Assembly: GCA_903822545.1 (NCBI GenBank)
Contig: CAIJPN010000029.1
Coordinates: 1-64,000, forward strand
Direction: 5' to 3'
From: an uncultured Anaerolineae bacterium
Lineage (GTDB): Bacteria > Chloroflexota > Anaerolineae > Anaerolineales > Villigracilaceae
DNA length: 64,000 nt
The notes under the pieces are model-generated. The model saw nothing but the letters and a program-made list of their open reading frames with translations, was not told where the DNA came from and ran no database searches. Numbering within the stretch: position 1 is the first letter of the stretch; each line of letters starts with the position of its first letter. Shown here in pieces: positions 50,705 through 51,820 of the stretch. A program made the position numbers and the translations under genes.

Positions 50705-50782
50705 CCCCCCGGGGGTTTTGGGGCCCGGGAACAGAATGGAGACCAAAATCTCCAGGTTTTGGATTGATGATAAGGAGATGGG

Positions 50783-51280
50783 ATGATGGGAAAAATGTTC
50801 GGGTTGTTTTTGCTGGTTGTTTTCCTGGTGGGCTGTGCCCCGTTAGCGGCAGAACCTACAGCTGCGCCCCAGGTCAGTTTGACGGCGACGCCGTTACAGG
50901 GCGGTGTGGGCGAGCTGGAAACTGCCCCGGCACCGGCAGCCACTTCGCGCGGCGATAAACTTATCGCCAGCGATCCAGCTTCCATTAAATTTGGAGATGG
51001 TAAGCCTGCGCTGGTGGAATTTTTCCGCTTTACCTGATTGACCTGCCGCTCAATGGCGCCCATGGTGCATGGGCTGGAAGCGAAGTATGCCGGCAAGCTC
51101 GATTTTTATTTTATCGATGCGGATGATCCCAATACGGAACAGTTCCGGAGAACGTTTGGTTTTTTTGTGCAGCCGGAGTTTTACCTGTTGGATGGGCAGG
51201 GTAATGTGGTGAAGAAGTGGTTTGGGAATGTTTCGCAGGATGCGTTTGAGCAGGAGTTTGCCAGCCTGCTTGGCGAGTGA
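50783..51280 (+). CDS. Thioredoxin-like lipoprotein with in-frame TGA: probable selenoprotein (UxxC)
   Basis: Single frame of 165 residues read through a TGA at 51035-51037. An N-terminal lipoprotein signal (LFLLVVFLVGC, lipobox LVGC), a Thr/Pro/Ala linker, then a thioredoxin fold: GKPALVEFF-RFT-[TGA]-LTCRSMAPMVHGLEAKYAGKLDFYFID, ending EFYLLDGQGNVVKKW. Aligned with W-C-G-P-C-K-M-I-A-P, the TGA falls on the first redox Cys and C88 on the second, so residue 85 would be selenocysteine. A SECIS-like stem-loop follows the TGA. Start ATG 50783 (or 50786) after taaggag. Without readthrough the product would be an 84-residue piece lacking the redox site. A Cys-to-stop mutation is the alternative. 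Confidence 0.8.
51035..51082 (+). promoter_or_regulatory. Bacterial SECIS-like stem-loop after the TGA codon
   Basis: TGA at 51035-51037; a perfect 6-bp stem GCCCAT/ATGGGC (51058-51063 with 51069-51074) has the apical loop GGTGC, starting 26 nt after the TGA. An outer CGCT/AGCG stem (51047-51050 with 51079-51082) extends it. G in the first two loop bases and this distance fit the general bacterial SECIS pattern recognised by SelB. Confidence 0.7.
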
Positions 51281-51289
51281 TGCGTTGAG

Positions 51290-51820
51290 ATTTTTGATTA
51301 CCGAGTTTTTACAAAGATCTTGGCGCCTTGCCAGTAATTCCAAATTCAAAATTGAGTCGCAGGCAATAGGGCCAAAATCCTAACGCCAGGGCGCAGAGTC
51401 GCAAAGGTTTTTAGAAAATTTGGCCTGACCGTTGCTTTAATTGGTCTTTTTACCGGTTTGCGCGGATAAGGGGTTGTAAAAGTATTACTACGCAGATTGA
51501 TTTTTTAACATTCGTAGACCCCCTCCCGGCCTCCCCCAAATCCCCTGGTTTTGGGGATTTGGGGGAGGAGAAACCCATTTTTTTGCCAGGTTTCAGCGCC
51601 TTCCCCCAAATACGGACGCTCTTCAGTCCGTATTTGGGGGAAGGCGGGGGATGGGGGTCAAACGGGGTATCCGAAAATGCGGAGTTATTCTTTTACAGAC
51701 ACTAAGTCAAAAAACTTGGCATTTTTGCGACTTTGCGTTAAGTCCATTGGTTTCAAATTTGGAATAGCTGGCACCTTGCTTTTATTTTTGGATTCCTGGT
51801 GTTTTTTGTAATGACTTTAA
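51290..51820. repeat. Large palindromic non-coding patch with nested hairpins
   Basis: About 530 bp without a credible gene. Centre: two strong hairpins, about 51531-51567 and 51600-51643 (the latter with an 18-bp stem), enclosed by a further C-rich/G-rich pair (51517-51530 with about 51644-51660). Outside these lie weaker inverted pairs: a cgcagagtcgcaaa-type stretch near 51390-51405 mirrored near 51724-51740, and attccaaattcaaa near 51338-51351 mirrored near 51750-51766. The whole is a decayed palindrome, perhaps a relic mobile element or a repeat nest. Confidence 0.55.

Follow-up and report, generated by a model that had tools for sequence, protein, structure and literature searches.

Thioredoxins that contain selenocysteine (Sec) are a described class: Table 1 in the 2026 catalogue of prokaryotic selenoproteins marks Sec-containing thioredoxin (Trx, PF00085, UxxC) as verified by experiment (PMC13188914). 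The same table holds a number of thioredoxin-like selenoproteins, namely SaoT, the HUIPC motif protein, GOS_C, a TlpA-like protein and a thiol:disulfide interchange protein; most of them have UxxC, as does the protein described here, and the TlpA-like one has UGC (PMC13188914). Further, NF041057 is listed in the catalogue as DsbG-like, with UxxC (PMC13188914). For the Chloroflexi, Table 2 of another paper gives 3 families and 3 selenoproteins (PMC1794560).

The gene that we describe lies in a stretch of 64,000 nucleotides from an uncultured Anaerolineae bacterium, below called the window. Judging from sequence comparison, it very probably encodes a selenoprotein: the UGA at 51035 would be read as Sec by way of SelA, SelB, SelD, tRNA-Sec and an mRNA hairpin, giving an exported thioredoxin-domain lipoprotein with a Sec85-x-x-Cys88 pair. 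The coordinates of its features are collected below.

Table 1. Features of the thioredoxin-like lipoprotein gene, in positions of the window.
Feature	Position	Strand	Remarks
CDS, thioredoxin-like lipoprotein, predicted to contain Sec	50783..51280	+	165 residues with Sec85; stop TGA 51278-51280
Shine-Dalgarno-like AAGGAG	50772..50777	+	precedes ATG 50783 / 50786; direct reading
Putative signal peptide with lipobox L15-V-G-C18 at its end	50783..50836	+	by eye; Cys codon 50834-50836
In-frame TGA, residue 85, probably read as Sec	51035..51037	+	first redox position, UxxC; TGA in 96/96 close orthologues
Resolving Cys88 of UxxC, codon TGC	51044..51046	+	TGC here in 126/126 Sec rows
Thioredoxin domain, about residues 65-164	50975..51274	+	PF00085, AlphaFold2 model, fold matches
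bSECIS hairpin	51058..51074	+	7-bp stem, apical loop GUG 51065-51067, 27 nt from TGA to loop

The frame can be read directly from the sequence. Between 50783 and 51277 it holds one internal stop, the TGA of codon 85, and the N-terminus of the translated protein is MMGKMFGLFLLVVFLVGC. The preliminary description had the continuous frame, its single TGA and the lipobox LVGC right. Substrates of signal peptidase II have a signal peptide and a lipobox cysteine; in an alignment of 23 of the orthologues (alignment A1), 20 rows have a cysteine here when counted by eye. In a plain list of open reading frames the gene appears as two fragments, of 84 and 80 residues, so routine annotation can overlook it in nearly a hundred genomes of this family alone.

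Between the lipoprotein-like signal and the thioredoxin domain there is a linker rich in Pro, Ala and Thr. In the read-through protein Pfam Thioredoxin (PF00085) scores 31.3 bits, with a cut-off of 23.5, over residues 74-157. This match spans both sides of the TGA. As in the earlier description, that codon takes the place of the first redox cysteine, and Cys88, three residues past it, is the second half of UxxC. An AlphaFold2 model, made from 23 orthologues with the TGA read as Cys, has a mean pLDDT of 83.2; its block means are 93-98 from residue 61 onwards, and a helix at 86-101 directly follows Sec85. When this fold is compared with solved chains the best 50 rows have Z between 15.0 and 16.3, the latter being the top score, and nearly all of them are thioredoxins. 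P131, presumably the cis-Pro place of the domain, is invariant in alignment A1.

How does the protein relate to the described groups? With the Sec-thioredoxins it shares a PF00085 match over cut-off, a UxxC redox site and a hairpin after the UGA. Ordinary thioredoxin has the active site WCGPC. Unlike it, the proteins studied here carry the lipoprotein-like signal and the linker, and their site reads RFT or AFW followed by U-xxC; the canonical thioredoxin model TIGR01068, an equivalog, gives 29.6 bits, far under its cut-off of 96.8. For the window protein PF13098 also stays below its cut-off (15.5 bits, cut-off 27), and in Pfam and NCBIfam no family model except Pfam Thioredoxin is over cut-off. 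Models of SaoT, HUIPC and GOS_C are absent among the 17 families that match members of alignment A1 at E <= 0.001.

NF041057, the Rcas_1661 family, is by its name likewise a thioredoxin-like (seleno)lipoprotein, and we take the Rcas in that name to suggest a Chloroflexota source. Its model has 247 positions and a cut-off of 190 bits. It is not among the 10 NCBIfam matches of the window protein at E <= 1, nor is our locus among the 56 matches that the model has at E <= 1 in the same genome. Against alignment A1 there are weak matches in 3 of the 23 members (best E 3.3e-5). Membership of NF041057 is ruled out, as the model misses the locus. Three other loci in the genome (L216, L217 and L218, on contigs C24, C159 and C17) match NF041057 at 89-129 bits, under the cut-off of 190, and are without internal stops.

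Among the catalogue entries consulted there is none for a comparable subfamily, and the string 'chloroflex' is absent from the main text (PMC13188914). Among the publications found, judged by titles and abstract openings, none names this lipoprotein family. We are apparently dealing with a new, unnamed subfamily; Sec-thioredoxin-like proteins themselves are known, and single members may already be annotated with Sec in GenBank. The word 'new' in the preliminary description can therefore be kept for the subfamily, and has to be given up for the class, since UxxC Sec-containing thioredoxins were already described. With this subfamily a conserved and apparently unnamed selenoprotein group is added to a phylum with few on record in the sources consulted.

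Next we consider the TGA codon in relatives. The family set consists of 152 genomes, our own included. Some match at E <= 1e-3 is present in 128 of them; 96 have a close orthologue (best match at E 3.4e-27 or better) and the other 32 have weaker matches only. At the codon aligned with 51035 all 96 close orthologues have TGA, that of our genome among them. In genome G009 the orthologue (L135) is a frameshift-split gene with a stop at the aligned column. TGA is also found in 20 named loci labelled Chloroflexi, Anaerolineales, Anaerolineaceae, Anaerolinea or Herpetosiphon, several of which are apparently the same genomes. Matches to the alignment are present in 147 of 301 genomes at the level of the order (E <= 1e-12), in 37 of 298 in the class (E <= 1e-25), and in 64 of 400 in a sample of the phylum, where the far matches are mostly weak and without TGA. 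Twenty later loci from other families of the class, part of 28 matching genomes outside the family, have TGA in 19 cases and Cys in one.

We then collected distinct sequences with matches at E <= 1e-18 and enough flank, leaving out L135 and the paralogues L137-L149. In these 157 rows the codon is TGA in 126, Cys in 23 (14 TGT and 9 TGC), Ser, Asp or Ala in 7, and one row (L186) is frameshifted. Close homologues had been expected to show Cys or Sec at this position, and they do, apart from the seven Ser/Asp/Ala paralogues (7/157) and the frameshifted row. Directly ahead of the site, 80 of the TGA rows have RFT and 39 have AFW. Differences among the TGA rows are mostly at third codon positions, before as well as after the TGA, and the codon at +3 is TGC in all 126; together this indicates that the stretch after the TGA is under selection as protein.

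It could be argued that a Cys codon was turned into TGA in a pseudogene, or by an error in sequencing or assembly, so that only a truncated protein is made. TGA is indeed one base away from both TGT and TGC, and the genome is an assembly of 237 contigs (5.53 Mb, 100% complete, 3.15% contaminated). However, the same TGA is present in every one of the 96 close orthologues, other assemblies included, and in all 126 distinct TGA rows the TGC at +3 is followed by an intact remainder of the domain. A nonsense mutation or assembly error is ruled out by the presence of the TGA in independent genomes and the conserved domain downstream of it, and the probability that we give to this explanation is vanishingly small.

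The seven Ser/Asp/Ala rows (L165, L166, L168, L169, L183, L184 and L185) lack the second Cys as well in six cases. At L183 and L184 such a copy adjoins an intact TGA copy, and genome G260 has both kinds. They appear to be copies that have lost the site, that is, redox-dead relatives.

The genomes of the family also contain other thioredoxin-like genes whose first redox position is a stop, with different motifs around it: QSPY-U, FSGT-U and YADW-U. These are L138-L141, L143-L146, L148, L149 and L150:3835-4146, and the stop is TGA where it was typed; L137 and L142 have Cys there instead. The gene in L150 is about 2 kb upstream of the orthologue. Probably these genes represent further Sec subfamilies.

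The genome contains the complete set of genes that the preliminary description proposed to search for. SelA scores 430.4 bits, SelD 351.3 and the main piece of SelB 322.3 (cut-off 242.25), and there is a tRNA-Sec with 73.3 bits (cut-off 47) to which ARAGORN assigns the anticodon TCA (UCA). Of the 152 family genomes 143 have SelA above cut-off, which shows that it is no contaminant of a single bin; as SelA is nearly universal there, the machinery does not discriminate inside the family. Within the window itself there is no tRNA, and Rfam has 0 matches at gathering score. The selD gene of the genome (L018, G000:C17:135378-136310) has an in-frame TGA of its own, within the active-site loop of SelD (C-A-G-U-A-S-K), and this TGA too is followed by a hairpin.

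The residue that is inserted is not visible from sequence, and Cys is what the other redox-intact homologues have. UGA might thus be decoded as another amino acid throughout the genome, or as Cys by a tRNA-Cys with a UCA anticodon, with no Sec involved. Against the first version, this gene itself and 28 of the 126 Sec rows end in TGA, where it acts as a real stop, so UGA is not reassigned everywhere; genome-wide reassignment is ruled out by these terminal stops. Against the second, the UCA-anticodon tRNA of the genome, among the part of its tRNAs that was listed, fits the tRNA-Sec family. Further, the hairpin covaries and is kept in the TGA rows and is mostly gone from the Cys rows, which indicates decoding that depends on SelB. 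We regard such non-Sec decoding as extremely unlikely.

In the hairpin, GCCCAUG-GUG-CAUGGGC, the stem is formed by nucleotides 24-30 and 34-40 and encloses the loop GTG (the T of TGA being 1), with a folding energy of -9.9 kcal/mol. Published limits for bSECIS elements are a loop of 3-9 nt with a G in its first two positions, an upper stem of 4-16 bp, a distance of 16-37 nt from the UGA and an MFE of -7.5 or lower (PMC13188914), and the hairpin at 51058-51074 falls within all of these printed limits. The same rule is satisfied after 127 of the 2109 TGA triplets on both strands of the window (about 6%), and when the 17 nt are shuffled, 7 of 200 sequences fold equally well. The hairpin of this single gene is within chance, and alone it is weak evidence. 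The preliminary description had held that the exact position of the TGA and the stem-loop together speak against chance; the stem-loop is there, and it is the conservation and covariation that carry the weight. What lifts the hairpin above chance is a TGA conserved at the exact codon (96/96) together with compensatory changes in the stem.

Covariation is observed directly when the rows are compared. For five core pairs in 121 distinct Sec segments, 604 of 605 cells are paired and all five pairs are present in 120 segments, one segment being without a core pair; if the pairing partners are slid only 11-39% of the cells pair. In 23 Cys segments the corresponding figures are 59 of 115 cells and all five pairs in 1 of 23. 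The Sec rows have on average 4.99 of the 5 pairs vs 3.81 (sd 0.07) in a synonymous-codon null, and the Cys rows have 2.57, in agreement with their null of 2.62; the codon pool of the null was drawn from the Sec rows. Mean folding energy does not discriminate Sec from Cys segments, as it is below the synonymous null in both (Sec -16.1 vs -14.0, Cys -11.3 vs -9.5 kcal/mol).

Compensatory changes are seen at three pairs. On a tree there are at least 11 switches between A-U and G-C at pair 28-36, at least 5 between C-G and U-A at pair 25-39, and at least 2 between C-G and U-A at pair 27-37; these counts may be too high, as the tree is a poorly resolved FastTree of short proteins, with the hairpin codons left out. 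Some changes in the stem are not silent: where GGG becomes AGG (Gly to Arg) there is a silent CCC to CCT, and where Pro becomes Ser (TCC) there is a silent GGG to GGA. In the later loci of the class all five pairs are found in 18 of 19 TGA loci, L238 being without one core pair, and L242 has C-G at 29-35, where all 121 earlier segments had T-A. The residues HG at the hairpin-coded positions are still present in 13 of the 23 Cys rows (counted by eye), although all five pairs are present in only 1 of the 23. The idea that the RNA dictates the residues is thus only partly supported.

With the machinery in the genome, the conservation of the TGA and the covariation of the hairpin, the case for Sec insertion at 51035, as first proposed, is about as strong as comparative evidence allows. 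In the Sec pathway SelA makes Sec on tRNA-Sec from selenophosphate, which is supplied by SelD, and SelB brings the charged tRNA to the UGA. For this gene SelA would make Sec on tRNA-Sec(UCA), and SelB, bound to the hairpin 51058-51074, would deliver it to the UGA at 51035. With Sec85 in place translation would run on to the stop at 51278. After export the product would receive a lipid on Cys18 and stay attached to the outer face of the membrane; the lipobox, read by eye, suggests that it is probably located at the surface. From the thioredoxin fold and the UxxC site we infer a redox role: the Sec85-x-x-Cys88 pair would carry out thiol-disulfide (selenenylsulfide) chemistry, most likely as a reductase.

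In general Sec insertion competes with termination. The UGA might accordingly be a regulated stop, where an 84-residue lipoprotein is a main product and read-through with Sec occurs only when selenium is plentiful; the 84-residue part does carry the signal and the lipobox. However, no more than the beginning of the domain lies in these residues, the sequence past the TGA is conserved, and the Cys orthologues have no stop at this position. A regulated stop would also not exclude Sec insertion, only rank it as partial, and as an account of the gene we find it very unlikely. If Sec is inserted as proposed, the test peptide FTULTCR and its variants can be used to search metaproteomes.

The Sec and Cys forms differ in the presence of SelA. 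Among orthologues at E about 1e-28 or better, tallied by hand, SelA is absent from 12 of 23 Cys genomes vs 4 of 52 TGA genomes outside the family (Fisher p = 4.6e-5); ten of the 12 SelA-less Cys genomes belong to one genus, so that the independent events are few and the association is affected by shared phylogeny. Codon readings cover all 23 Cys genomes and 31 of the 52 TGA genomes, the rest being taken from an internal-stop flag, and the sample leaves out G165 (frameshifted) and four genomes with Ser or Asp copies only. The four TGA genomes without SelA are incomplete assemblies (68-91% complete), and the remaining 11 Cys genomes have SelA. One Cys row, L181, keeps the hairpin (CCC GTC GTG CAC GGG), and its genome, G257, retains SelA; this is as expected for what a recent change from Sec to Cys would leave. 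A tree of the two forms requires at least 4 changes between U and C. As it is built from few columns and has no inferred root, no direction is claimed. Together the Sec, Cys and redox-dead forms, some in genomes that have SelA and some in genomes that lack it, make up a natural series in which the loss of Sec can be studied.

Finally, we looked at the neighbouring genes. In the window the upstream neighbour encodes a Metalloenzyme-superfamily protein, and downstream there are a SAM hydroxide adenosyltransferase and an ECF-type transporter; the transporter genes are common to 3 of 20 loci of the family. In several other families of the order (L156-L215) the gene order is the thioredoxin lipoprotein, csoR (PF02583), a gene for an HMA protein (PF00403) and a copA-like E1-E2 ATPase with an HMA domain. 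Within flanks of about 4, 3 and 3 kb for order, family and class, shorter at contig ends, csoR is found in 35 of 60 order-level loci and in 0 of 20 loci of both family and class, and copA in 35 of 60, 0 of 20 and 1 of 20, respectively. Among loci with more than 2.5 kb of sequence after the gene, copA lies downstream in 31 of 50 from the order and in 0 of 10 from the family. No copper genes of the csoR/HMA/copA type are present in the window or in the 20 loci of its family. The copper link is not general, and for this gene it is a lead, not a finding.

For some of the sister families, it is a reasonable guess that the protein keeps extracytoplasmic thiols reduced under copper stress. A broader picture would be that of a redox lipoprotein that is Sec-dependent, extracytoplasmic and widespread in this Chloroflexota class. 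Its sequence would be shaped in part by the RNA hairpin, with the residues encoded by the stem changing in step with it, and in some families it would be a partner of CsoR-CopA that guards surface thiols. We hold this picture only tentatively, and consider it rather doubtful as a whole. Its part on CsoR-CopA is weakened by the fact that copper genes are commoner beside Cys forms than beside TGA forms (16 of 18 vs 12 of 28 order loci with more than 2.5 kb downstream).

In the intergenic region at 51520-51650 of the window there are C-rich and G-rich arms (cctcccccaaatcccc ... ggggatttgggggagg, and then again), which look like inverted repeats.
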